A stretch of 64,000 nt of DNA, taken from contig SHMT01000007.1 of NCBI GenBank assembly GCA_004282745.1, forward strand, positions 62,001 to 126,000. Direction: 5' to 3'. The notes below the pieces were generated by a model. The model was not told where the DNA came from, made no database searches, and was given only the letters and a program-made list of their open reading frames with translations. Positions 25,375 to 64,000 of the stretch are shown piece by piece. The first letter of the stretch is position 1. Each line of letters starts with the position of its first letter. The position numbers and the translations under genes are program-made. This stretch comes from Candidatus Scalindua sp. SCAELEC01 (lineage in GTDB: Bacteria > Planctomycetota > Brocadiia > Brocadiales > Scalinduaceae).

Positions 25375-26013
25375 ATGGCGACATATTTTTTATATAGTTT
25401 CTCAAACGCTAAATATTTTAAGAAATCTTCTATTAAATTATCCAACTTGGCAGAGATAAAATCAGGATACCTATTTCGTTCTCGACTAACCAAAGACATT
25501 AAAGGGAACGTTAAAGTTGTGCAGCTAAAGGATGTTGATAGCAATGGCAATTTAAATCTAAATGATTTGATTACTATTAATTCCATACAAAAAGAAAGGG
25601 GCCATTTTCTCCAGGATGGGGATGTAATCTTTAAGGCAAAAAGCAACCGGCACGTAGCAGTCGTTTTCCGTAGTGGCATGAAAAATGGTATCACTACACT
25701 GCATTATTTCGTTTTAAGCCTAAAAAATTCAAATATATTACCCGAATATTTAGCGTGGTATCTCAATCAGAAACCAGCGCAGAAATATTTTCACTCAAAT
25801 GCTGCGGGTACGAGAATTCCAATAATAAACAAACAGATTCTCAGTGAATTGAATATTTCAGTAATACCTTTAGAAAAACAACAGAGGGTTATTGAAATAC
25901 ATAAATTGATGTGCAAAGAAAATGGTCTTGTTAAGCAGATTGCTGAAAAACGCAAAAAACTTTATGACTGTTTATTGCTTATGCTGGCTAATGGTAATAA
26001 TAAATATCAATAG
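25375..26013 (+). CDS. HsdS-like specificity protein with one target-recognition domain
   Basis: A 212-residue protein. VKLSNLAEIKSGYLFRSR-like start, VVQLKDVDSNGNLN, FLQDGDVIFKAK, YLAWYLNQKPAQKYF and AGTRIPIINKQILSELNISV-I-PLEKQQR form one complete TRD and its spacer helix. Normal HsdS proteins have two such halves and about 400 residues. Half-size S subunits can dimerise to give symmetric DNA recognition. Here the cognate methyltransferase gene downstream is decayed, so the protein is probably an orphan. The real N-terminus may be later than the ATG at 25375, since residues 1-18 do not look like HsdS. Confidence 0.75.
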   Translation: MATYFLYSFSNAKYFKKSSIKLSNLAEIKSGYLFRSRLTKDIKGNVKVVQLKDVDSNGNLNLNDLITINSIQKERGHFLQDGDVIFKAKSNRHVAVVFRSGMKNGITTLHYFVLSLKNSNILPEYLAWYLNQKPAQKYFHSNAAGTRIPIINKQILSELNISVIPLEKQQRVIEIHKLMCKENGLVKQIAEKRKKLYDCLLLMLANGNNKYQ

Positions 26014-26020
26014 AGGTAAT

Positions 26021-26423
26021 TGTAATGAGGTCTATCGAAAGCAAGTAGATATTAAGCGGAATGACTTTAAAAGGCGAGGAAAGAACGTTCAGTACTTTAA
26101 AGGTATCGAAACATGGTTTGATCGTATCAATCAATTTATTCAAAATCACGCAAACGGCAAAATCAAAATACGCCATTACATTATAACTGCTGGGTTAAAA
26201 GAAATCCTTAGCTGTCTATAACGATTATGGAGAAGGTAAGAAGGAAGCAAGGAATGTATGCAAAAAACTTCTTAAAAACGGAAGGGCAAATTTTATTGCC
26301 CCCGCTGATTATTCGCCAAACAGCCTACTTGAAAAAAGAGTCCATTTGCTACTCAATTCAGTTATTGCACATATTGACTACGAACATGAGTTGTTTGATT
26401 GCAGACGTAAATATGATATTTAG
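26021..26423 (+). pseudogene. Decayed HAD-family hydrolase gene
   Basis: Two fragments in different frames resemble one HAD-like phosphatase that often accompanies restriction loci. The first (to about 26207) reads YFKGIETWFDRINQFI then IKIRHYIITAGLKEI. The second (26199-26423) reads SLAVYNDYGEGKKEARN and RANFIAPADYSP and ends in a TAG. The middle of the protein, which should hold the catalytic acid residues, is missing, so an internal deletion has joined the two at about 26205. No start codon or intact phosphatase motif DxDxT is seen. Confidence 0.6.
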
Positions 26424-26440
26424 TGCGGGGAGAGACATTA

Positions 26441-27249
26441 TGAGTAAAATTTCACAGAAAGAGATCAATGATACCGCATGGGTGGCATGTGACACCTTCC
26501 GGAGTGTGGTCGATCCGGACCAATACAAGGACTATATTCTGGTAATGCTTTTTCTTAAATATATTTCCGATGTCTGGAGGGGTCATTATGAGAAGTACAA
26601 AAAACAGTACGACAATAATGAGGAGCGAATTCGAAGAAAGCTGGAACGGGAACGTTTTGTACTGCCAATTGTAAAAATGAAGGAAACCGACACGGGAACG
26701 ATAACAGATTCCTTCCTTGCAGGCTATTATCGTTTGTATGTCATCGGCAACACCTATATATACCTTATAGAGCGTTTTGGCAGTGACGCGGGTAAGAAGG
26801 CGGGTGAATTCTATACCCCGCATCAGGTTTCAAAGCTGCTTGCCGCATTAGCAAGCACGAAGGCCGGCGACAGGACATACGATCCGTCCTGTGGTTCAGG
26901 CGGACTGCTGATCGAGGCGGCCCGTAAAGTTGGTGAGAAGAATTTTGCGCTCTTCGGTGAAGAGGTCAACGGCTCTACCTGGGCGCTGAAGATGCTGCGG
27001 ATGATCCTTACCGGCGTTTTATACGTGGAGTTCCGCCGAAGAGCAAAGGCGACTGGGCATTTATCCTGATCCTTTGAGGAGGTTAAGGAGAACGACTTCA
27101 ATCTCAACATACCGCGCTATGTGGATACCTTTGAAGAGGAGGAGGAGATTGACATCGATGCCGTACAACTGGAGATTGATGAGCTGGAAAAAGAACTTTC
27201 CGGTGTGAGGAAGAAGATGGCGAAAATGCTTAAAAAGGTGGTGATATGA
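26441..27249 (+). pseudogene. Decayed type I methyltransferase gene (hsdM)
   Basis: The ATG at 26441 starts an HsdM N-terminus (ISQKEINDTAWVACDTFR, YILVMLFLKYISDVW). After residue about 75 a stretch typical of HsdM is missing, and the frame resumes at VIGNTYIYLIERFGSDAGK and GEFYTPHQVSKLLA with SAM motif DPSCGSGGLLIEA. After NGSTWALKM the central catalytic block, including the NPPF motif, is absent. Pieces PPKSKGDWAFI and FEEVKENDFNLNIPRYVDTF continue in other frames to a TGA at 27247. At least two deletions and two frameshifts are visible, so no active enzyme is made. Its tail overlaps the rhuM start (ATGA). Confidence 0.8.
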
Positions 27250-28328
27250 AAAAAACACGAAAAGGAGTAAATGATCTCAACTCTTTTCCGGAAGAGATCG
27301 GAAAAAGCGAGATACTGGTCTACAAGACCGATGATGGGCAAATCAAGATTGATGTGCGTCTGGAAGAGGAGACCGTTTGGCTCACCCAGCAACTAATGGC
27401 AAAGTTGTTTCAGACCACACAGCAGAACATCAGTCTGCATATCCGAAACATATATGAGGAGAGCGAATTAGAACCGCACGCAACTTACAAGAAATACTTG
27501 TCAGTTCGGCGTGAGGGCAACCGGAAAATACAACGCCTTCTTGATTATTACAATCTGGATATGATTATTTCAGTCGGCTACCGGGTAAAAAGCTTAGTTG
27601 CTACGCGGTTCCGAATATGGGCAACCCAGCGCTTAAAAGAGTATATCATCAAAGGATTTACCATGGACGACGAACGGCTGAAGAACCCGCCAGTAGCTGG
27701 TTCTCCTGTGCCTGATTATTTTGATGAAATGCTGGAGCGCATCCGTGATATCCGCGCCAGTGAACGGCGGATGTATTTACGGGTGCGAGAAATTTTCTCC
27801 ATGGCAGGCGATTACGATCCGTCATTGTCGGAAACGTCAAAGTTTTTCAGCATCATTCAGAATAAGCTGCATTTTGCCGCCACAGGAATGACAGCAGCGG
27901 AATTACTCCAAAACCGTGCCGATCACTCTCTGCCAAACATGGGGCTTACCAGTTGGAAGGCTGGCGAAGTACTCAAGTCAGATGTAACCGTTGCCAAGAA
28001 CTACCTGAAAGAGGACGAAATTGAAGAACTAAACCGAATTGTGGTCATGTGGCTTGACTATGCCGAAGACCAGGCCAGACGCCGCAAACAGGTTTTTATG
28101 AAAGATTGGGAACGGAAGCTGGACGAGTTCTTGAGATTCAACGAACGGAATGTGCTTCCTGACGCTGGCAAGGTTGGAAAGAAGGCTGCCGATGACCATG
28201 CTAAACGGGAATATGGCAGGTTTACTGAGCGCCGCCGGAAGCATAAGGAAGCCATTGGTGAGGCTGAGTCCATCAAGGCGCTAGAAGAAGCGGCCAAAAG
28301 TCTGCCGAAGGGGAAGAAAAATGAATAA
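27246..28328 (+). CDS. RhuM family protein (virulence RhuM-like)
   Basis: A full-length 360-residue RhuM-type protein. The N-terminal KIDVRLEEETVWLTQQLMAKLF followed by VRREGNRKIQRLLDYYNLDM and RFRIWATQRLKEYIIKGF is the conserved Fic/DOC-adjacent RhuM core. The C-terminal half is helical and charged. RhuM genes are commonly inserted between type I restriction genes; their function is not established, though a regulatory or toxin-related role has been proposed. It starts at an ATG overlapping the decayed hsdM stop. A truncated relative is encoded at 57607. Confidence 0.88.
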   Translation: MKKTRKGVNDLNSFPEEIGKSEILVYKTDDGQIKIDVRLEEETVWLTQQLMAKLFQTTQQNISLHIRNIYEESELEPHATYKKYLSVRREGNRKIQRLLDYYNLDMIISVGYRVKSLVATRFRIWATQRLKEYIIKGFTMDDERLKNPPVAGSPVPDYFDEMLERIRDIRASERRMYLRVREIFSMAGDYDPSLSETSKFFSIIQNKLHFAATGMTAAELLQNRADHSLPNMGLTSWKAGEVLKSDVTVAKNYLKEDEIEELNRIVVMWLDYAEDQARRRKQVFMKDWERKLDEFLRFNERNVLPDAGKVGKKAADDHAKREYGRFTERRRKHKEAIGEAESIKALEEAAKSLPKGKKNE

Positions 28329-51865: not shown

Positions 51866-52207
51866 TTACAAACTTACAAGTTCTCTTAACGCGTCGTTCA
51901 ATGAAGTATTATCACAGGGACTCAGTTTGCCGAGTTTTCTAAGCACCAAGACCTTCTCAATTGTTGATATGGCAGGTTTAAATGTAGATGGTTTTAACAA
52001 ACCGGCATTTTGCCAATTAACAATAATACTTTCACCAACACCAATGATTTGTTCTTTTTGGGTAGTAATTGCCATAATAATTATGTCCAGAGAAATATTA
52101 TTATAATTATTTGAACTAATAATTACGGCTGGACGTTTTTTTGTTGTGGACTGATCACTAAAAGGAAATGGCACAAGTATAACGTCACCTCGTTCATAAT
52201 TTATCAT
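51866..52207 (-). CDS. MazF/PemK-type toxin
   Basis: About 113 residues from the ATG at 52207. The N-terminus YERGDVILVPFPFSDQS and KKRPAVIISSN are diagnostic of the PemK/MazF endoribonuclease fold, with the conserved Arg and Ser/Thr of the active site downstream (IMAITTQ). Starts at 52243 are possible but would overlap the antitoxin gene further. It cleaves mRNA when free of its antitoxin, which is encoded immediately upstream and overlaps it by 14 bp. Confidence 0.9.
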   Translation of the reverse strand: MINYERGDVILVPFPFSDQSTTKKRPAVIISSNNYNNISLDIIIMAITTQKEQIIGVGESIIVNWQNAGLLKPSTFKPAISTIEKVLVLRKLGKLSPCDNTSLNDALRELVSL

Positions 52208-52391
52208 AAGCGCTATCCTCTTCGTTATCCCAAATTTTTTCAAATGAAGTTTCAGACATTTTTTGGGAGGCTTTGGTAAGCAATTCTCTCTCCTTTTTTG
52301 TCTCTAAAAATCTGACGAAGTCGTATATTTCAATGAGCATACTCTCAGGAAGTTTATCAATTTCTTTCTTTATCATCTCTTTAACAGTCAT
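52194..52391 (-). CDS. Antitoxin paired with the MazF-type toxin
   Basis: A 65-residue protein with DUF2281-like character: MTVKEMIKKEIDKLPESML followed by DFVRFLETKKERELL and an acidic C-terminus. Such short helical antitoxins bind their partner through the C-terminal half. Gene order (antitoxin first, overlapping) is the usual one. Confidence 0.85.
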   Translation of the reverse strand: MTVKEMIKKEIDKLPESMLIEIYDFVRFLETKKERELLTKASQKMSETSFEKIWDNEEDSAYDKL

Positions 52392-52983: not shown

Positions 52984-55900
52984 TCAGTCTCTACAAGTCA
53001 ACTCCTCCGCTATTAACTCCGCCTGTTTTAAAACTGTTTCAGTCGCCAGTTTCTGCATATCAGGCGGATAGCCATATTGTCTTAAAGTCCGCTTTACAAT
53101 AACTTTTAACTTGGCTTTTACGCTTTCTTTAATTGTCCAATCTATTGAGGCGTTTTCTTTTACCTTTTCAAACAAGACAACGGCCAACTCTCTCAGCTTG
53201 TCCTTCTCCATTACCTCACGTGCACTATCATTATTTGCAATAGCAGTGTAAAAAGCATATTCAAAATCTGACATTCCCATTTCCTGTGGTTCTTTGTCCA
53301 TCTTTTGAATGTCCTTGCTCAGTTCAATCAGTTCCTCAATAACCTCCGCTGCTGTTAATATTTTATTATGGTATTTCCTGATAGCATTTTCAAGCATCTC
53401 CATTAATGATTTACTTTGTATAAAGTTCTTTTTAACACGTGATTTAATTTCATCATTAAGCAATTTCTTTAACACTTCAAGAGCAATATTTTTATGCTCC
53501 ATATTCTTGACTTCCAAAAGGAACTCTTCTGACAGTATGGAGATATCCGGTTTCTTGATCCCGGCAGCATCAAACACATCTATGACCTGTTCTGTTACCA
53601 GCGCCTTATCAATTACCTGTCTTATTGCGGTCTCTATCTCATCATCACTCCTGCCGGAACCTGTGCTATCAAATTTTGACAAGCGTGATTTTACTGCCTG
53701 AAAGAATGATAATTCATCTTTTACATCCATTGCCTGTTCATGAGGTATCGCTATCGAAAAGGCCTGAGACAAAGCGGTTACCTCATCAATATATCTCTTT
53801 CTTCCATTGTCTATTCCCAGAATATGTTCTTCCGCGGAAAGAATAAGGGATAGTTTTGTTGAAGTGTCTGCCTGAAAGTAATCTTCATAAGCAAACCCAT
53901 GAAACATCTGAGAGACCACTTCGAGTTTTTCCAGCATCATATGAACGGCCTTTTCCTGAGCGATTGCGGGATCACCCTTTCCTCCACTATCAGAATAAAA
54001 AGACAAGGCTTTTTTCAGGTCAGAGGCAATGCCCAGATAATCAACGACAAGACCACCAGGCTTATCTTTGTAAACCCTGTTTACCCGTGCTATCGCCTGC
54101 ATCAGGTTATGCCCCTTCATCGGTTTATCTATGTAGAGGGTATGCAAACAAGGCGCATCAAAACCCGTAAGCCACATATCTCGAACAATGACCAGCTTAA
54201 GTTCATCATCCGTATCTTTCATTCTCTCCGCTAACATTCTGCGCTGTTCTTTTGTCGTGTGGTGTTTCGATATTTCCGGGCCATCAGAAGAAGAGGAAGT
54301 CATAACCACTTTAATAACACCCTTTTTAAGATCGTCGTTATGCCATCGTGGCCTAATATTGATGATTTCTTTGTACAAATCAGCAGCAATACGACGAGAC
54401 ATTGCCACAACCATAGCCTTACCATCAAGCCCTCCGCCTCCGGGATTATTCCTAAGCTCGAAATGAGTGATAATATCCTGTGCCACCTGCTTTATTCGAT
54501 CTTCACTTCCGATGAGTGCTTCCAGTTGTGTCCACTTGGCTTTTGCCTTCTGGGTCTGTGTCAATTCGTCTGGTTCTAGCTCTTCATCCAGACTCGCAAT
54601 AAGTCTTTTCCCTTCTTCACTAAGCTTTATTTTCGCCAGCCTGCTTTCGTAAAAAATCCTGACTGTCGCACCATCATCAACGGCTTGTAAAATATCATAA
54701 ATATCAACATAGTTACCAAAGACAGCGGGTGTATTCACATCTGTGCTTTCGATGGGCGTACCCGTAAAGCCAAGATAGGTTGCATTAGGCAGGGCGTCCC
54801 GTATATATTTTGCAAATCCATATACAATTTTCTTGCCGATTACGTTTCCCTGCTCGTCCTTATCGTCAATTGTTTTCGCCTTAAACCCATACTGTGTACG
54901 GTGTGCCTCATCTGCTATAACAATTATATTTTCCCTGTCTGATAATTGCTCATACACATTTCCCTCATCAGGTTGAAATTTCTGAATAGTAGTAAACACA
55001 ACACCACCCGATGCGACCTTGAGAAGTTCCTTCAGTTGTTCTCTGTCTTCTGCCTGAACAGGTTCTTGCCTGAGAAGCTGTTTCGATGCCGCAAAGGTAT
55101 CAAATAACTGGTCATCCAGATCATTCCTGTCAGTGATGACCAAAATGGTAGGATTATCTAAGGCAAGAACAATTTTTCCTGTATAAAAAACCATCGACAG
55201 GGATTTACCACTCCCCTGCGTATGCCACACAACACCACCTTTTCTGTCACCAACTGGTTGCGCCTTGACTCCCGGTAAGCCATAGCTTGCAGGTGATTCC
55301 TTTACGGACCCCTCCCGTCTCTCCGAGCCACCCTCCCGAGGGAGGGACTTCCTCCCTTCCCCAATAGGATAAGGCACATTCCCCTCCTCGGTGGGCCCAG
55401 AAATTATGTCCCCCTCCCTGGAAGACCCATGAATTATGTTCCCCTCCCTGGAGGGGCCAGAGGTGGGTTTCCCCTCCTTGGAGGGGTCAGGAATTATGTT
55501 CCCCTCCTGGGAGGGGTCAGGGGTGGGTAATCTCCCCACCAAATCATTTTGATGCTCCTTAATCCAATGCTCTATTACTCCGAGCACATCTTCAATGCTC
55601 TTTTTTATATCCAGATCATGAAAACGCAAAAAACGCACTCCCAATGATTCAAGCCTTTTCTGCCTTTTAATATCATTCTCATAAATCTCTTCATAATTAT
55701 GACTCTCACCGTCAATCTCAATTGCCAGCATTAAATCTTTACAATAAAAATCAACGATATATTCATCAATAGGCCGTTGACGATCAAAATCAAAACCAAG
55801 CATTTTCTTCTGTTTGATCTCATTCCAGAGCAGAACTTCAGAAAGTGTCATGTTTTTTCTTAACTTTCTAGCTAATTCCCTGAGTTTTGGATTATAGGGA

Positions 55901-57057
55901 AGTATTTTTCTACCCACCCCTGTATCCCCTCCAAGGAGGGGACTTTGTCTTCTATTCCCTCCATGGAGGGGACTTACTATTTTACCAGCATCAGGCAATG
56001 GTCTTTTTGTTACACTGCTTGCACGGGAGGTCCGAGAAAATGTATTCCCCTCCTCGGTGGGGCCAGGAATTATGTTCCCCTCCCTGGAAGAGCCATGAAT
56101 TATGTTCCCCTCCTGGGAGGGGCCAGGGGTGGGTACATACCCCGACGCCCGAATCGTAGATTCTACCGCCCTGTTTACAGCATAATACTGATGATAGTAA
56201 GCAAGCTTCTTCACGGACTGGATGGTAATAATGCCGGTCTCTCTGTCCTCTTTTTTAGATTTTTCAAAAACAATAAAATGCCGGATAAGGTCTAACAGAG
56301 TCTTCTTATTCAGCATACCCTTAATGAGTGTTTCCAATTGGCCAATCAGGGAAGACGCTTCAACCTTGCCGTCTGCTGTCTTCCACACCATAAAACGGTT
56401 TAATCCAGCAGAGATAGAACCTGCCTTTGCCTCCAGGCCATCCGAAATAATCATAAATCCGTTGTAGGTAAACAAGGAGGGGATTGACTGTTTGTAGGTC
56501 TGTAGCTGCCTGAATGCAGATATTACGGTCGCGTTCTCATCTGCAGGATTCTTGAGTTCGATAACGACAAGCGGCAGACCGTTTACGAAGAGAATGATAT
56601 CGGGGCGTTTGTTTGCACTGTTTTCGATAACCGTAAACTGGTTAGTAACAAGAAAGTCGTTATTTTCAGGATTATTAAAATCAATCAACCAGACAAAATC
56701 ACCACGGTCACTGCCGTTCTTCTGGTAACTTACCTTTATGCCTTCGGTAAGCATACGGTGAAAGGCCTCATTATTGGTGATCAACTCAGGAGAGTTTAGC
56801 CGGAGTATCTGTTTTATGGCATCTTCCCTGATATCCTCTGGAATGCTTGGATTTATTCTGCCAACTGCTGCTTGCAGACGTTTGATTAATAGCACATCCT
56901 CAAAGGACTCCCTTTCAGGAGTGTCACTGTCTGCCTGTGCGTGATCGCACGCAGACAAGTCTGGGGCGATAGATGGGGCGGATATGTACTTGTAGCCAGA
57001 TTTTCCGAGTAACTCTATGGCAAAGGCCTCTATCGTGTTTTCAGAAATCTTGTTCAT
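52984..57057 (-). CDS. hsdR: Type I restriction endonuclease HsdR with an in-frame DUF559 insertion
   Basis: A 1357-residue HsdR. The N-terminal PD-(D/E)XK nuclease is seen as RPDIILFVNGLPLVVIELKN (residues 151-170). Walker A HTQGSGKS lies at 612-619 and the DEAH box IVIADEAHRTQYG near 717; helicase domain 2 has DMWLTGFDAP and MQAIARVNR. The HsdM-docking C-terminus follows. Residues about 308-586 are foreign: repeats of the type PxPSQEGN / GSSREGN / GPTEEGN enclose a complete DUF559 endonuclease domain (385-503; TLSEVLLWNEIKQKKM, IVDFYCKDLMLAIEIDG). The flanking native sequence (NRAVESTIRASGY and SYGLPGVKAQPVGDRKGGVV) joins exactly as in ordinary HsdR. Whether the long protein works is unknown. 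It overlaps the end of the RAYT gene. Confidence 0.92.
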   Translation of the reverse strand: MNKISENTIEAFAIELLGKSGYKYISAPSIAPDLSACDHAQADSDTPERESFEDVLLIKRLQAAVGRINPSIPEDIREDAIKQILRLNSPELITNNEAFHRMLTEGIKVSYQKNGSDRGDFVWLIDFNNPENNDFLVTNQFTVIENSANKRPDIILFVNGLPLVVIELKNPADENATVISAFRQLQTYKQSIPSLFTYNGFMIISDGLEAKAGSISAGLNRFMVWKTADGKVEASSLIGQLETLIKGMLNKKTLLDLIRHFIVFEKSKKEDRETGIITIQSVKKLAYYHQYYAVNRAVESTIRASGYVPTPGPSQEGNIIHGSSREGNIIPGPTEEGNTFSRTSRASSVTKRPLPDAGKIVSPLHGGNRRQSPLLGGDTGVGRKILPYNPKLRELARKLRKNMTLSEVLLWNEIKQKKMLGFDFDRQRPIDEYIVDFYCKDLMLAIEIDGESHNYEEIYENDIKRQKRLESLGVRFLRFHDLDIKKSIEDVLGVIEHWIKEHQNDLVGRLPTPDPSQEGNIIPDPSKEGKPTSGPSREGNIIHGSSREGDIISGPTEEGNVPYPIGEGRKSLPREGGSERREGSVKESPASYGLPGVKAQPVGDRKGGVVWHTQGSGKSLSMVFYTGKIVLALDNPTILVITDRNDLDDQLFDTFAASKQLLRQEPVQAEDREQLKELLKVASGGVVFTTIQKFQPDEGNVYEQLSDRENIIVIADEAHRTQYGFKAKTIDDKDEQGNVIGKKIVYGFAKYIRDALPNATYLGFTGTPIESTDVNTPAVFGNYVDIYDILQAVDDGATVRIFYESRLAKIKLSEEGKRLIASLDEELEPDELTQTQKAKAKWTQLEALIGSEDRIKQVAQDIITHFELRNNPGGGGLDGKAMVVAMSRRIAADLYKEIINIRPRWHNDDLKKGVIKVVMTSSSSDGPEISKHHTTKEQRRMLAERMKDTDDELKLVIVRDMWLTGFDAPCLHTLYIDKPMKGHNLMQAIARVNRVYKDKPGGLVVDYLGIASDLKKALSFYSDSGGKGDPAIAQEKAVHMMLEKLEVVSQMFHGFAYEDYFQADTSTKLSLILSAEEHILGIDNGRKRYIDEVTALSQAFSIAIPHEQAMDVKDELSFFQAVKSRLSKFDSTGSGRSDDEIETAIRQVIDKALVTEQVIDVFDAAGIKKPDISILSEEFLLEVKNMEHKNIALEVLKKLLNDEIKSRVKKNFIQSKSLMEMLENAIRKYHNKILTAAEVIEELIELSKDIQKMDKEPQEMGMSDFEYAFYTAIANNDSAREVMEKDKLRELAVVLFEKVKENASIDWTIKESVKAKLKVIVKRTLRQYGYPPDMQKLATETVLKQAELIAEELTCRD
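55300..56136 (-). mobile_element. In-frame GGAGGGG-palindrome element carrying DUF559, inside hsdR
   Basis: 837 bp without an in-frame stop. It has direct and inverted GGAGGGG/CCCCTCC repeats at 55300-55527, 55909-55982 and 56044-56136, and encodes repeated peptides PTPxPSQEGN at both sides. A DUF559 (very-short-patch-repair-like PD-(D/E)XK) domain lies between. Ends match the smaller insertions at 62777-62995 and 63759-63890. Confidence 0.85.
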
Positions 57058-57610
57058 AGTATTTATCAGTTAGCCAATGAGAGGGATTCTTGATAATGTA
57101 TTCCGAAATTTTATAATATGATTGTTCGTTGCGTATAATATGTTCGTAATAATTGCGTTGCCATACTGATGGTATGGGTTCAAAATCTTGAACCCTTACA
57201 TTTTTCCGAAACCATTTTGTCACACCAATTTTAAATCCCCGCACCATGGAACCGATTGATCGCGGAATTGTTTTCTGGTATTTGTTTTGTTTGGGTTGTT
57301 GTAGGGGTTCAAAATCTTGAACCCCTACCCCCACATCATTAACAATTTGTATTATTCCGTGCACATGGTTCGGCATAACCACATATTCGTGCAATCTGGT
57401 ATTCGGATAATGTTCCGGGATATCCAACCAAAATTCTTTTGCAATTTTTCCCGCATTATTCAATACCATTTTATTATCAGATATTTTGCCGAAAAGACAT
57501 ACATGGTTATGTGTGCATATCGTAATAAAATAGAACCCTTCCTGTGAATAATCGTATTCTTTTAATCTGATTGACCGACGATGATGTGTCTTTGGATTAT
57601 GTTTTGTCAA
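57041..57610 (-). CDS. RAYT / IS200-like REP-associated tyrosine transposase
   Basis: A 189-residue Y1 transposase, TTG start at 57610 overlapping the previous stop. The HUH motif is in YVVMPNHVHGIIQI (residues about 76-89) and the catalytic Tyr lies in NEQSYYKISEYIIKNP. RAYT proteins act on palindromic REP-like sequences. Two in-frame insertions each encode VQDFEP and correspond to perfect palindromes at 57176-57195 and 57301-57328. The gene sits in the same direction between rhuM' and hsdR. Confidence 0.88.
   Translation of the reverse strand: MTKHNPKTHHRRSIRLKEYDYSQEGFYFITICTHNHVCLFGKISDNKMVLNNAGKIAKEFWLDIPEHYPNTRLHEYVVMPNHVHGIIQIVNDVGVGVQDFEPLQQPKQNKYQKTIPRSIGSMVRGFKIGVTKWFRKNVRVQDFEPIPSVWQRNYYEHIIRNEQSYYKISEYIIKNPSHWLTDKYYEQDF
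57176..57195. repeat. Palindrome inside the RAYT gene, copy 1
   Basis: GGGTTCAA and TTGAACCC arms with a 4-nt AATC loop, in frame, encoding VQDFEP. Confidence 0.85.
57301..57328. repeat. Palindrome inside the RAYT gene, copy 2
   Basis: GTAGGGGTTCAA and TTGAACCCCTAC arms with the same AATC loop, in frame, again encoding VQDFEP. Longer than copy 1 by 4 bp in each arm. Confidence 0.85.
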
Positions 57611-58224: not shown

Positions 58225-59982
58225 TTATTTCTTCCATTCTTCTACTATTTTCGTAAAATCAACATCTTTCCACTGCTCTTGCCAAATTTCAATGTATTTA
58301 ATATCATTTGATGACGGTTTGTACTCATCACATTCATCTATTTTAACAATACAAGGTATTTCAATAGACTCTCCAATAAGTAACGCTTCACCTGTTTTTA
58401 ACGCAGGCAAAGTATCAGTCATATTACCCATAGAATCAGGCATCAACCTTCTTACATAATTTTGGTCATCTGGATTTGTTAAGCGCATTGCGAGAAAAGT
58501 ATTACATTGCGAGAAAATAGTTTCGGATATTTCCGAGGGCCTTTGACTGATAATACCAAGTGTTACACCATATTTTCTCCCCTCTTTGGCAACCCTTTCA
58601 ATTGCATTCTTTGATGCTCTAAATTTGGCCAATTCGCTTTTTGGAACATATTTATGAGCTTCTTCATAAACCAATAATAGCGGCGTTTCGCAAATTATTT
58701 CTTTGCCATCAAAATATTTTTTATAGTAAAAACCGAATTCAAACAGTATCCTTGTTATTAACGAAACTGTTATACTCAATACCTCAAAAGGCACTCCACC
58801 TAAGTCAATTATCGTAATATTTTGATCGGAACTTGAATTATCTATCTTATAACCTACAAACTGTTTCATCGTATCTTCAAATGATGAATCACGTGATCCA
58901 TCTCCAAAAAGAAAATTAAGTCGTTTTTTAAAGATTTTGTTTTCAAAACGGTCTATAAACTTATCCAGAGTACCATCTGCATAAATCCCACCCTTTATCT
59001 TGCTTGTTTTCCTAGGTTCAAAAGTGTACTGTTTTTTAAAAAAGTGTAAATATTTCTCTTCGATCTTCGAACATTGCTTTTCCTCATTTTCAATTTTAAT
59101 ACACAAATTATCCCTATAGTCAGTTGTCTCGTTTTGGAAATTGTATAAACAATTGTACACCTCTGTTATGTCAAATTTTGTTGGAGTGCCAAAATGAATT
59201 TTTTCTCCAGGATTGTGTTTCTGCTTATTTTCAATTATTGTACGTCTCAATATTGATGATTGGTTATAATTGTTTCTATCACCTGTATCCAAAAATAATT
59301 CTTCAAGTTCCGCTTCATTTAGTAACCAATAGGGTAAAGTTAAATTGCTTGCTTCGACATAATTACACTCTGGAAAAGCGTCTTTATACTCACCATGAAT
59401 ATCAAACAAAACGATATGTGAGTTATTTAAGCCCTCATACTGCCCCTCCTTTTTACTAATTGCTTCTTGTAAAATCTTTGCAACAGTATGAGACTTGCCT
59501 GAACCTGTTGAACCGACAATAGCAAAATGTTTATTAAAGAAGCGGTTCCCATTTACAGGAGTTTCAATTTTTTTATTTTGTGCTAATTTTGAAAAACAAA
59601 ACCTTTCTTTTTCTTTAATCCGTGAATTGAAAATAGCATTTATGTCTTCATATTTTGCTGGCAGCACCTTTGTAGGTGGTATTGTTAAAAAATCACCACC
59701 ACGAGAGAATTCATTTTCCTCAATTATCCCCAGAGGATTTGCTTCGATAATATAAGATCGCTCAGACGGTTTCTTTTCGTCGATTACAATAGAATAACTT
59801 TCAATAATCGCAATTAATTTATGGTTATCGTCATCAGAAATTTCTAAATATGAGCCGACCTTCAACTTTTCAACTTGTTCGTCCGTTGAAACAAACTTGC
59901 TCAAGTCGTCAACAGATATCTTTACCTTATTGGGATATACGGCGATAACCTCTGCATTCATGCTTTTATTTCCATCCTTCAT
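58225..59982 (-). CDS. HerA-like ATPase of a DUF4297-HerA defence pair
   Basis: A 585-residue HerA/FtsK-type hexameric ATPase. An N-terminal beta-barrel HAS domain (VIAVYPNKVKISVDDLSKF), Walker A IVGSTGSGKSHTV (about residues 151-163), Walker B IVLFDIHGEY, and the second ATPase half LLLVYEEAHKYVP plus RKYGVTLGIISQRPSEIS are present. GGAG precedes the ATG at 59982 by about 8 nt. It is 10 bp downstream of the nuclease gene. HerA rings assemble with their nuclease partner to degrade or cut invading DNA. Confidence 0.88.
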   Translation of the reverse strand: MKDGNKSMNAEVIAVYPNKVKISVDDLSKFVSTDEQVEKLKVGSYLEISDDDNHKLIAIIESYSIVIDEKKPSERSYIIEANPLGIIEENEFSRGGDFLTIPPTKVLPAKYEDINAIFNSRIKEKERFCFSKLAQNKKIETPVNGNRFFNKHFAIVGSTGSGKSHTVAKILQEAISKKEGQYEGLNNSHIVLFDIHGEYKDAFPECNYVEASNLTLPYWLLNEAELEELFLDTGDRNNYNQSSILRRTIIENKQKHNPGEKIHFGTPTKFDITEVYNCLYNFQNETTDYRDNLCIKIENEEKQCSKIEEKYLHFFKKQYTFEPRKTSKIKGGIYADGTLDKFIDRFENKIFKKRLNFLFGDGSRDSSFEDTMKQFVGYKIDNSSSDQNITIIDLGGVPFEVLSITVSLITRILFEFGFYYKKYFDGKEIICETPLLLVYEEAHKYVPKSELAKFRASKNAIERVAKEGRKYGVTLGIISQRPSEISETIFSQCNTFLAMRLTNPDDQNYVRRLMPDSMGNMTDTLPALKTGEALLIGESIEIPCIVKIDECDEYKPSSNDIKYIEIWQEQWKDVDFTKIVEEWKK

Positions 59983-59992
59983 AATAAATCTC

Positions 59993-61135
59993 CTATTTTA
60001 ATATTTGTTGTATGTCAGAAAGTTCACTAATTTCAACATTTACTGTATCAATATCAAATGCGAACTCGATTGGGGTCGTACGATAAAATTGATAGATTTT
60101 CTTTGCGCATCCCAAATTGCAACCTAGCATCACTTTTAAATTATCTTCATTATTAATAAACTTTATCGAGATTTCATTTTTAATGGTTGATTTCACTTTA
60201 AGGCTTTTTATATGAAAATCAGAATCCATAAAATCATAACCATCTTTGATTATATTGTTTTCAGTGATTAGCTCAGTTTTTAATCTTTTAAGATTATCTT
60301 TAGAAATATTTGTGAAATAGATATAAGGAGCTCCGGACTTAATTCCTCGAACAAGCTTCTTATAGAATTTCTTCTTTACGTTAAGAACTGTTGTTTTGAT
60401 AGCTGAAGCATCTTCTGTCCCACTTAACTCAATAATAATAAAGCGTTCCCAATGATCTATGTTTCGATAAGTAAAATGGCGTCTTTTGATTTCGGCAATG
60501 TATTGTTGTTTCCCTTTATAAATTCGATAAGCAGAATCAAATACAGTTTTACGGTTTCCAGTGATTATTGCTAAAATTTCAGATTTAGTACACGTCCTGT
60601 CTTTTATATCTAAATTGTTTGTGACAATTTTTCTCAAATGGCTTGCAATACTGCCATAATGAACTAATGCCTCATCGAAATTAGAACAGCTTGTGTTTGT
60701 TTTTATTATTTCTACGGCTTGGATAAAATGTTCTTGAAATGACTTTGAAAAATGCAATTCAAAATTTGAAACAAAACCATCTTTCTGAGGTTTGGGGAAA
60801 TTATCCTTTTTATTTCCTAAAATTCTATCGAACTCATTACTTGTAAATATTTTCTTCCCTTTTTCAAAATTATTAAAATAGCAATACAGATAATACTTTT
60901 TTATTGGAAATGCTTGATACTCATTTATAAGTTGAATAATAGGTTCTTTAATCTTTGCTGGAGTGTATTTTTGAGTCTCTTTGTACTTCACTTGCATTAC
61001 AAAATCGTTTGTATTGATATCTTGAATTTGTTCAAGGCAAATAGGAGTGGAGTCATCTGCTTTGAATAATTCCAGAATAGTTTTGTCTATTTGAAATTCA
61101 AATCCCTTGATTGCGTAGTAACCACCATCAGACAT
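59993..61135 (-). CDS. DUF4297/Cap4-like nuclease of a HerA defence pair
   Basis: About 380 residues from the ATG at 61135, with GGAG 7 nt upstream; the frame extends to 61165 inside hsdS. The N-terminus GGYYAIKGFEFQIDKTILEL, CLEQIQDINTNDFVMQVKYKE is the PD-(D/E)XK core of dsDNA nucleases fused or paired with HerA (E...D...QVKYKE). The rest is alpha/beta with no other motif. Together with the HerA gene it is a recognised anti-phage arrangement. The gene starts within the last codons of hsdS, so it has been inserted into the restriction operon. Confidence 0.8.
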   Translation of the reverse strand: MSDGGYYAIKGFEFQIDKTILELFKADDSTPICLEQIQDINTNDFVMQVKYKETQKYTPAKIKEPIIQLINEYQAFPIKKYYLYCYFNNFEKGKKIFTSNEFDRILGNKKDNFPKPQKDGFVSNFELHFSKSFQEHFIQAVEIIKTNTSCSNFDEALVHYGSIASHLRKIVTNNLDIKDRTCTKSEILAIITGNRKTVFDSAYRIYKGKQQYIAEIKRRHFTYRNIDHWERFIIIELSGTEDASAIKTTVLNVKKKFYKKLVRGIKSGAPYIYFTNISKDNLKRLKTELITENNIIKDGYDFMDSDFHIKSLKVKSTIKNEISIKFINNEDNLKVMLGCNLGCAKKIYQFYRTTPIEFAFDIDTVNVEISELSDIQQILK

Positions 61136-62612
61136 TGCACAACTCCATTTCGACCCGAATTTCACCGCTCATTAGTTTTGGGAGCAAAATATCTCTCATA
61201 GCCTCAAGCAATCTTATTTGATGGCAATTCTCAATAACTTTATCGTTTAACGGCTTTGCTTCATTCTCAAACTTCTCTATTAAATATTCTGGTGCAAGGA
61301 AGGTTTCCATTTGCTGAAAATCAGTTTTACCAATCGAACCAAATACAGTGCCTTCATCATTGAATTTTCTAATTTCATCCATTAATGAACGTAACTTGAA
61401 ATAGGTGTAAGTGTAAAAACTGTTGTTATGTTTATAACGAAAAGCTGCAACTCCACGCCCAATACAACATTCTTTTTGTGCCATATTTTGTGCCCCTACA
61501 GGTGCTCTAACACTTATCAAGGTATCATGTGGATATGCCAATCGTTTAGGTTCTGTTGTATAAACTCGCTCTTCTGGAAACCTGAAACTAAAATCAGCAT
61601 TCCCCTGAAACATTGACATTCCAATACCTTCTTGATTATAAGAACTCCCCGGTGGTGACTGCCCCATAGTGAAATCAAATTCGGCAGGAAGAACTCCTCC
61701 CTCCCAATCATCATTCGCTTCCTCAACAAACCACTGCCTGAAAAGTGTTTCCGCCATGGTTTCGAGGGTTTTGTTCTGGCGGTGGAGCAGGTCTATTTTG
61801 TCATCTAGACTGGAAAGGATAGAGGCAATGGCTTTTTGTTCTGGAAGGGTGGGAACGGGAAATTGAATATTTTGGAAAGTTCCTAAATTAATATTGTCTT
61901 GCACTGAACCTTCACCAATATGCTTCAATTCTCTCTGAAAATGGCTTAGAGTGTAAAAAATAAAATCTAAGTCCGCCAATTTTTCATTTGGGATAAAACC
62001 TAAAACACTGTCTGGAAAACACGCATCGAATGAAAGGATTGCTAATTCTGCTATATTTGCAGCAATAGTTATACATAAAGTACCTTTTGGCCATAGCTTG
62101 CTTTGTTTTAAACCTTCTTCACTATATGTTTGATCATATTTTATGATGTATTTTCTTGCTTCACGTATTTCGCCAGTTTGAATGAAAGGATACTTACCAC
62201 CGTAAAGATGGAAAGCATATCTTGGCCTATGTCGAGAACGTCCCCTTTGTAATTGCCCTAAGTCTTCCAATCTATACTCCTTCCAACTTTCAAGTTCCGG
62301 TTTTTTTTGTAGTACCACATACTTTTCACAAATTTTATTCTTAAATTTTTCCGGTATCTTTTCCCAGGGCATAACATCTACAGAGAAAGGCAGATCACTT
62401 TCGGCAAAGTCTTCCTTCAGTTCTCCCAACTTCATGGTATTAATCTCAAAAACCACTAAATCAAGATCAGAGTGTTGATTTGCTGTCCAGTTGACCCTTG
62501 AACCATAAGCCCATACCGTTTTATAGACAATATGCCGCTTAAGGATTTTTTTAATGAGCTTCAGGTGTTCTGGTTCTACATCGATGATGATTTCTTTGTC
62601 ATATTCAGACAT
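61128..62612 (-). CDS. hsdS: Type I specificity subunit HsdS with an N-terminal nucleotidyltransferase domain
   Basis: A 494-residue fusion. Residues 1-105 are a minimal nucleotidyltransferase (MNT) domain: WAYGSRVNWTANQHSDLDLV has the GSx10DxD metal site, and VDVMPWEKIPEKFKNKI follows. Residues about 108-305 and 310-490 are two target-recognition domains with spacer helices (LPEQKAIASILSSLDDKIDLL; ALLEAMRDILLPKLMSGEI at the end). An S subunit alone is about 390-400 residues. The MNT part could modify or regulate the S or HsdR product. No stop separates the domains. It is followed by the inserted nuclease gene. Confidence 0.85.
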   Translation of the reverse strand: MSEYDKEIIIDVEPEHLKLIKKILKRHIVYKTVWAYGSRVNWTANQHSDLDLVVFEINTMKLGELKEDFAESDLPFSVDVMPWEKIPEKFKNKICEKYVVLQKKPELESWKEYRLEDLGQLQRGRSRHRPRYAFHLYGGKYPFIQTGEIREARKYIIKYDQTYSEEGLKQSKLWPKGTLCITIAANIAELAILSFDACFPDSVLGFIPNEKLADLDFIFYTLSHFQRELKHIGEGSVQDNINLGTFQNIQFPVPTLPEQKAIASILSSLDDKIDLLHRQNKTLETMAETLFRQWFVEEANDDWEGGVLPAEFDFTMGQSPPGSSYNQEGIGMSMFQGNADFSFRFPEERVYTTEPKRLAYPHDTLISVRAPVGAQNMAQKECCIGRGVAAFRYKHNNSFYTYTYFKLRSLMDEIRKFNDEGTVFGSIGKTDFQQMETFLAPEYLIEKFENEAKPLNDKVIENCHQIRLLEAMRDILLPKLMSGEIRVEMELCNV

Positions 62613-62776
62613 CGTCTCTTCTGCTCCTACACTTAATATTCAATAAACCGTTCATTAAAATCAAATTCATCTTCATCATAGGGCAGGCAAACATACCTTC
62701 CCGGCTTAAGCACATAATCTAGTTCTCTTACCTTTTCCATTGTTACAGAGTTACAAAAACCCGTTATACCCGTGTA

Positions 62777-62995
62777 CCCCTCCCGTCTCTCCGAGCCACC
62801 CTCCGAAGGGAGGGACTTTTCTCGGCTCCCCAACACACCCGTACCTGGACAGGAACATTTCCTTTTCCCGGTATGAGGCTTATTTCCCTTTCCAGGGAGA
62901 GATATATTCCCCTCCTGAGAGGGGAAGGAAGACACGTTCTCCACCTGGAAGGGGCCAGAAGTAATGTTCCCCTCCTGGGAGGGGCTAGGGGTGGG
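62777..62995 (-). mobile_element. GGAGGGG-palindrome element in the hsdM C-terminal copy
   Basis: 219 bp in frame. It encodes PTPSPSQEGN at its start and SLPSEGGSERREG at its end, the same ends as the hsdR insertion but without DUF559. Confidence 0.8.
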
Positions 62996-63424
62996 TGCAT
63001 ACCTCCACTTGTGATAAGTTTCAGATATGCAGGTAATGTCTTCTTCCGGATTTTTACACTTTGATATGATGACAATATTGTGTCCCCACGGAATCTGCAT
63101 TAATTGGGCAACAGCTTGTTGCCCAAATGACTTTTTTGCCTTTAAAGTGGTTTATTGCGAATTTTGATCAACAGGTTGTTGGCTATTTTCGAATGCTAAT
63201 TGCGAATCAGGCTGTGTTGCAATTATTTCCTTTTGCCAGAAAGTACACCACTGCTTGATATATTTTAGATTGCTTAAAGAAAAACCCTTCGTATCTGGAA
63301 ATTCAGCCATTAGATCAATGCTTAATTGCTTCAGAAAGCCTTCACCCCACCTGGCATCTTTCTGTTTGTCTGCAATGTCCCGCCCCAGATCCCAATAAAA
63401 CAGCAGTAATTCAGAATTAACCTT

Positions 63425-63441
63425 AGGGCCCAGGAAATAAT
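63425..63441 (-). repeat. 17-bp insertion in yhcG matching a MITE end
   Basis: AGGGCCCAGGAAATAAT on the plus strand differs by one base from the terminal repeat of the element at 50721-50933. It breaks the YhcG frame between QIKVAV and KVNSELL. Confidence 0.6.
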
Positions 63442-63530
63442 AACTGCCACCTTTATCTGAACCAGTCGAACCTTATTTTTCAGTTCCTTCAGCCATGCGG
63501 AATAATCCTTATCTTTCGCCAGTGGATGTT

Positions 63531-64000
63531 TCATACCAGTTTCACCTTTTTCAAGTTCTCAGTAATCAGCGCATTTAATCTCGCTTCCTCTTTCAACTGC
63601 TCTTCAAACTCTTTTTTCAAAGTGGTAAATCGTTCATTAAAATCAAAGTCATCCTCATCATCAGGCAGGCCAACATACCTTCCCGGCGTAAGCACATAAT
63701 CGAGTTCTCTTACCTTTTCTATGGTTGCAGAATTACAAAAACCGGGGATGTCGCTGTACCCCTCCCGACCCTTCGGGCCACCCTCCCCAGGGAGGGACTG
63801 TTTTCGTTTACGGGGGATACCAGTCGATATATTCCCCTCCTGGGAGGAGACCGAAAATATGTTCCCCTCCTGGGAGGGGTTAGGGGTGGGTGCATTCCTC
63901 CACTTGTGATAGGTTTCGGATATATATGCAATGTCTTCTTTCGACAATTCCCTTGTTCTGCGGTTTATTAGGTGCCCCATATTTCGCGCATCAATAAAGA
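63531..64000 (-). CDS. hsdM: Type I methyltransferase HsdM, C-terminal part (continues past window)
   Basis: The frame enters from the right edge reading FIDARNMGHLINRRTRELS and DIAYISETYHKWRN, is interrupted by an in-frame insertion (63759-63890), and continues YSDIPGFCNSATIEKVREL, TPGRYVGLPDDEDDFDFNERF to a TAG region at 63531. This is the C-terminal tail of HsdM, the part that docks with HsdS. The catalytic NPPF/Y motif is outside the window. A second copy of the same tail occurs at about 62633-63040. Confidence 0.85.
   Translation of the reverse strand, partial: FIDARNMGHLINRRTRELSKEDIAYISETYHKWRNAPTPNPSQEGNIFSVSSQEGNISTGIPRKRKQSLPGEGGPKGREGYSDIPGFCNSATIEKVRELDYVLTPGRYVGLPDDEDDFDFNERFTTLKKEFEEQLKEEARLNALITENLKKVKLV
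63759..63890 (-). mobile_element. GGAGGGG-palindrome element in hsdM
   Basis: 132 bp in frame, PTPNPSQEGN at the start and SLPGEGGPKGREG at the end. Shortest of the three related insertions. Confidence 0.8.

Follow-up and report, generated by a model that had tools for sequence, protein, structure and literature searches.

Class I HepT/MntA systems pair a HEPN protein carrying an Rx4HxY motif with a minimal nucleotidyltransferase (MNT) carrying a GSx10DxD motif (PF08780 or PF01934 with PF01909) (PMC7641770). MntA transfers AMPs to a tyrosine of HepT, which silences the HepT RNase (PMC7641770), and those MNTs of the class that have been characterised target the HEPN partner (PMC7641770, PMC11586414). 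A type I restriction enzyme that restrains a HEPN nuclease is represented by PrrC/EcoprrI (PMC3874165, PMC12707154). The parts of Anantharaman et al. 2013 (PMC3710099) that concern such loci describe HEPN genes in R-M neighbourhoods, with a proposed multi-pronged defence, and HEPN families fused to nucleases, helicases and ATPases; neither HsdS nor the term "specificity subunit" appears in that paper. Two reviews of restriction systems mention neither HEPN nor nucleotidyltransferases, and the papers searched, mostly open-access ones, yielded no report of an MNT-HsdS fusion and no toxicity assay of a HEPN encoded beside HsdS.

The window (the whole stretch of 64,000 nucleotides that was analysed) contains, at 61128-62612, an MNT domain that continues into a two-TRD HsdS of type I, a variant architecture in which two known kinds of system, type I RM and type VII toxin-antitoxin, come together. 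With HepT/MntA (type VII; HI0074/HI0073, SO_3166/SO_3165) it shares the MNT fold, the GSx10DxD motif and, in relatives of the window locus, an adjacent Rx4HxY HEPN; in the fused family, however, the putative antitoxin is covalently part of HsdS, the pair lies inside the hsd operon, and HEPN precedes MNT, with HEPN gone in the window. With PrrC/EcoprrI, in which a HEPN anticodon nuclease lies in a type IC RM operon, the family shares a predicted latent HEPN RNase inside hsdMSR and a proposed restraint by the RM enzyme. PrrC has its own ABC-ATPase and no separate antitoxin, whereas the fused family has a small HEPN and a candidate nucleotidyltransferase antitoxin fused to HsdS; its HEPNs are about 130-140 aa long and match PF08780 only (that of Zymomonas also PF01934), with no N-terminal ABC-ATPase. 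Type I HsdS proteins (1yf2, 3okg, 5ybb) share with the window protein the two TRDs, the two conserved helices and the hsdM/hsdR operon, and differ from it by the extra N-terminal MNT domain of about 105 aa.

Domains of the fusion gene

Pfam, PADLOC and the predicted fold agree with the first-pass annotation, which had placed a GSx10DxD MNT domain at the front of an S subunit with two TRDs (Table 1). Polbeta (PF18765) matches residues 20-103 (E 9e-10) and NTP_transf_2 (PF01909) residues 18-98 (E 1e-6), both passing the Pfam cut-offs, and Methylase_S (PF01420) matches residues 108-284 (E 1e-31), i.e. the first TRD only. The second TRD has no Pfam match and is assigned by fold and by the PADLOC Specificity_I models, which cover residues 210-489 and 302-485. 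The catalytic motif, GSRVNWTANQHSDLD, is a perfect GSx10DxD at residues 37-51, and the third acidic residue, D79 within LPFSVDV, is also intact.

The AlphaFold model (mean pLDDT 76, weak at residues 302-348) comprises an MNT fold and, after it, an HsdS with two TRDs; in Foldseek it matched the two-TRD S subunit 1yf2 (E 3e-22, 424 columns aligned). The MNT part superposes on HI0073 (1no5) with a TM score of 0.91 by target, an rmsd of 0.9 Å and 41% identity; 1no5 was also matched by profile (E 8e-35).

Table 1. Features of the fusion gene and of its neighbourhood (window numbering)
Feature	Position	Strand	Basis and remarks
hsdM, 3' part	63531..64000	-	N6_Mtase; whole gene 63531-65201, intact, 556 aa, crosses the window end
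hsdM 3' fragment, duplicated; also repeats and part of a DUF1016-like gene	62633..63100	-	DUF1016-like piece assigned by eye
MNT::HsdS fusion gene	61128..62612	-	single open frame, 494 aa, ATG start, no internal stop
Six codons (MSEYDK) apparently left over from the deleted HEPN gene, now start of the fusion ORF	62595..62612	-	DNA comparison with L015; HEPN N-termini
MNT domain (minimal nucleotidyltransferase, HI0073/MntA-like), residues 10-104	62301..62585	-	PF18765/PF01909; PDB 1no5 by profile and fold
GSx10DxD catalytic motif, residues 37-51, including the fusion-associated Trp42	62460..62504	-	sequence
HsdS TRD 1 and start of central conserved helix, residues 108-284	61761..62291	-	PF01420
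HsdS second TRD and distal conserved helix, residues 303-482	61167..61706	-	PADLOC Specificity_I, AF2/Foldseek; model confidence low at 302-348
DUF4297 defence gene	59993..61135	-	ATG at 61135; NF042945, E 4e-59, under its curated cut-off
HerA helicase of the DUF4297-HerA defence pair	58225..59982	-	NF042944, E 9e-255
hsdR of the same operon	52984..57057	-	in-frame insertion including a DUF559 domain

Gene neighbourhood and loss of the HEPN gene in the window

Both hsdM and hsdR lie in the cluster, in keeping with the assignment of the fusion protein as an HsdS. The nearest named relative of the locus is Candidatus Brocadiaceae bacterium S225, and the host is related to the anammox planctomycetes. 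Between hsdS and hsdR are found the DUF4297-HerA pair (58225-61165), which is inserted there with an 8-nt overlap with the 3' end of hsdS, a short RhuM gene and a REP-associated tyrosine transposase (57041-57610), the last near the duplicated 3' end of hsdM. In the close relative G012 (L097) the same slot is occupied by other genes, with frames of 165 aa and 597 aa (the latter DUF262-like by eye), which makes the hsdS-hsdR junction look like a site of variable cargo. HsdR contains about 300 extra residues in frame between its nuclease and helicase domains, with PSQEGN-type repeats in addition to DUF559, and the two copies of the duplicated hsdM 3' end (62633-63998) carry the same in-frame repeats (TPSQEGN...). 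Elsewhere in the window, at 25375-28328, what appears to be a decayed second type I system consists of an HsdS of half length (212 aa), an HsdM-like frame that is truncated and a RhuM-like gene, and a MazF/PemK toxin gene with an overlapping small DUF2281 gene is located just downstream of hsdR (51866-52391).

In L015, hsdM is followed by repeats, then by HEPN (ATGACTGAATATGATAAA...) and finally by MNT::HsdS; in the window, ATGTCTGAATATGACAAA directly precedes MNT with no HEPN between, as seen in the DNA comparison of the two loci. HEPN proteins of several members of this subfamily start with M(T/I)EYDK (MTEYDK or MIEYDK), and the MNT starts differ; the simplest reading is that a deletion took the HEPN gene and that its first six codons became the start of the fusion gene. 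Elsewhere in the same genome no close HEPN was found, the only candidate being a 31%-identical HEPN beside an MNT of its own. With no adjacent Rx4HxY HEPN, the window copy is, on this sequence comparison, a disarmed member of the family and not itself a complete system, since its HEPN has been deleted, and the protein probably acts solely as an HsdS whose MNT domain is orphaned. This deletion also explains why the first-pass annotation, which gave neither the strand (minus) nor a missing partner, had overlooked the HEPN.

HEPN is absent from two of the 25 fused loci (window and L043) and its motif is broken in three (L024, L025 and L048), and GSx10DxD is intact in all five; this asymmetry is mildly biased, the loci having been found through MNT. 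Loss or breakage of the toxin before the antitoxin would fit a toxic role for HEPN, and is also as addiction predicts. The dN/dS of the MNT domain between the window and L015 is about 0.11, a figure that spans time before the HEPN loss; with three sequences, of which the window is the most divergent, the post-loss lineage is not separable.

In L043 an Abi_2-like protein (by eye; 677-1597) occupies the usual place of HEPN just before MNT::HsdS, and another toxin may have replaced the usual one there; the HsdS part of this locus is split into two frames. In G006 (L096, 4557-5726), a DUF1016-like frame ends in a fused HEPN; the MNT::HsdS of this genome has a truncated HsdS and an Asn in place of the second Asp of DxD.

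Distribution, operon order and recurrence of the fusion

MNT profiles were scanned against 84,980 species genomes and 80 loci were kept. Further MNT-HsdS fusions were found: in 24 of these loci the MNT frame runs on into HsdS (own HMM), in about ten phyla and including complete chromosomes, and in L020 it enters an apparent HsdS start at the contig end. Fused loci occur in Planctomycetota, Pseudomonadota, Acidobacteriota, Nitrospirota, Chloroflexota, Actinomycetota, Verrucomicrobiota, Truepera, Spirochaetota, Thermodesulfobacteriota, Myxococcota and Caenarcaniphilales, and the relatives L015/G012 (MNT 91% identical), L018 and L053 share the fusion with the window. The fusion is nevertheless rare and patchily distributed: of 392 Planctomycetota genomes, four carry it in full and one more in truncated form. 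When the window protein and 19 full-length fused homologues were scanned, PF01420 and both MNT families were detected in 20 of 20, and the long fusion partner of MNT is always HsdS in the loci examined. Most other relatives of the MNT occur as a HEPN-MNT pair alone, without RM genes. For viral relatives, 28 pattern matches were obtained in IMG/VR, none of them confirmed, and phage records gave no match.

The usual order in the fused loci is hsdM - HEPN - MNT::hsdS - hsdR. HEPN lies upstream in 23 of the 24 and hsdM in 21; hsdR was found downstream in 12, often behind inserted genes, and several contigs or stretches end too early to show it. The HEPN was PF08780 in six of six tested, that of Zymomonas also matching PF01934 (HepT-like), and Rx4HxY is intact in 20 of the 23 HEPNs adjoining a fusion, so that the family has the adjacent HEPN that characterises HepT/MntA. 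The catalytic Asp pair of MNT, for which the first-pass annotation had raised the question of conservation, is retained, with GSx10DxD present in 79 of 79 MNT ORFs examined and in 25 of 25 fusions including the window.

Split forms of the operon are also found. Acetobacter plasmids carry hsdM, HEPN, MNT, hsdS and hsdR as separate genes in that order, with an 8-nt overlap of MNT and hsdS in two of three examined. The fused form is present on pZMOB01 of Zymomonas mobilis, where HEPN (L127, 3-392) overlaps MNT::hsdS (389-1972) by 4 nt, hsdM lies upstream across the plasmid origin and hsdR downstream. In a further type I operon (L049, 3546-6352), two HEPN genes flank MNT in the order hsdM, HEPN, MNT, second HEPN (RNLLAHTY), hsdS.

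Fusion and/or separation happened repeatedly. A tree of concatenated HEPN and MNT requires 13 changes of the fused state, at least nine of them forced by well-supported branches; its branches are long, and it does not distinguish fusion from separation (a tree of MNT only has too few columns to resolve). A single ancient fusion kept by all fused rows was tried on the HEPN+MNT tree and rejected (p-AU 2e-60).

A Trp adjoining the catalytic loop also marks the fused state: this residue (motif GSRxxW; Trp42 of the window protein) is present in 19 of 21 fused MNTs and in 3 of 43 unlinked ones. This is by far the strongest single-residue difference (Fisher 3e-11, next best position 3e-4), with relatedness ignored and the position chosen after seeing the data; the Trp goes with fusion in 7-8 of 9 independent pairs (median p 0.016). 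In Acetobacter, L049 and L057, where the MNT is RM-linked without being fused, Gly occupies this position, which suggests, despite the Trp of RM-linked L031, that the Trp goes mainly with covalent fusion.

Proposed mechanism and alternatives

The MNT half is best read as an antitoxin tethered to a restriction enzyme, as a guard with PrrC/EcoprrI-like logic, because HEPN (Rx4HxY) together with MNT (GSx10DxD) is the signature of HepT/MntA. In the complete operon (hsdM - HEPN - MNT::hsdS - hsdR), HEPN would be a latent RNase toxin, and the MNT half of HsdS would AMPylate it, or bind it, at the tyrosine of Rx4HxY and so keep it silent. With the antitoxin placed within HsdS, the cell would be protected only while the S subunit is made and intact; if the restriction enzyme were lost or disabled, by gene loss or by a phage attack on the complex, HEPN would remain unmodified and growth would stop. 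We consider it fairly probable that an HsdS with a built-in MntA-type antitoxin holds the HEPN toxin of its operon silent and thereby guards the restriction system. The toxin and antitoxin roles and the AMPylation in the fused systems are transferred from the characterised HepT/MntA pairs, and we infer toxin release upon failure of the restriction enzyme by analogy with PrrC only. For the window this explanation is weakened, because HEPN is gone beside the fusion and nothing is left to neutralise there; for the family, the lone HEPN-MNT pairs of most other MNT relatives, with no RM genes nearby, count against it. The first-pass annotation had offered the MNT domain as an antitoxin or modifier of HEPN or other partners, and hence perhaps a self-regulating or target-modifying specificity subunit; the antitoxin option has been strengthened, and self-regulation or target modification as such was not borne out, the context pointing to the upstream HEPN RNase toxin.

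An assembly error or a frameshift joining two genes, or absence of the fusion from relatives, would each have spoken against a real fusion gene. Although repeats and a duplicated hsdM fragment occur in the region, no support for an artefact was found, and the open frame and the same fusion in independent assemblies, among them single-contig chromosomes (L019 and L021) and a finished plasmid (L127), leave an artefact virtually no probability. Addiction without sensing is unlikely, yet it is the most serious competitor for the family: a HEPN-MNT cassette would stabilise a mobile type I RM operon by post-segregational killing, and the fusion would be a by-product of stop-codon loss between overlapping genes that adds no phage response. 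Unfused overlapping versions on plasmids, the repeated switching of the fusion state and the patchy occurrence would all fit; that the long fusion partner is invariably HsdS, and that the Trp by the catalytic loop accompanies fusion in most of the independent pairs, which suggests adaptation to the fused state, argue against it.

Very unlikely, in our estimate, is an MNT domain that modifies the restriction enzyme itself (HsdM, HsdR or HsdS) or some other target, as a self-regulating subunit independent of HEPN. The window and L043 retain the MNT motif without HEPN and the dN/dS is low, as such a role would predict, but that figure includes time before the HEPN loss, HEPN is kept upstream in nearly all other fusions, and the characterised MNTs of the class target their HEPN (PMC7641770, PMC11586414). 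For the window copy alone, and compatibly with a tethered antitoxin in the family at large, we give about even chances that MNT is a vestige without present function on a working HsdS: the HEPN has been deleted and no close HEPN exists elsewhere in the genome; on the other hand, the catalytic residues are intact and the dN/dS is low, although the HEPN loss may be recent.

Under the tethered-antitoxin reading, a restriction enzyme may restrain a suicide toxin whose gene has been lost in the window genome, and what recurs in many phyla is a recognisable antitoxin domain joined to the enzyme's DNA-recognition subunit. More tentatively, and with rather less confidence than in the guard itself, these loci could represent a widespread and repeatedly formed type I class whose specificity subunit itself serves as antitoxin to an embedded HEPN RNase, and in which an attack on the enzyme (e.g. 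by DNA mimics) triggers abortive infection. The recurrence of the joined domain also suggests that one guard system includes some of the genes now labelled simply restriction endonuclease subunit S or HI0074 family protein. It makes the coupling testable with one protein and one toxin (Zymomonas mobilis pZMOB01). A natural single-chain HEPN-MNT fusion is encoded in a Syntrophomonadaceae bacterium (L062, 557-1309).
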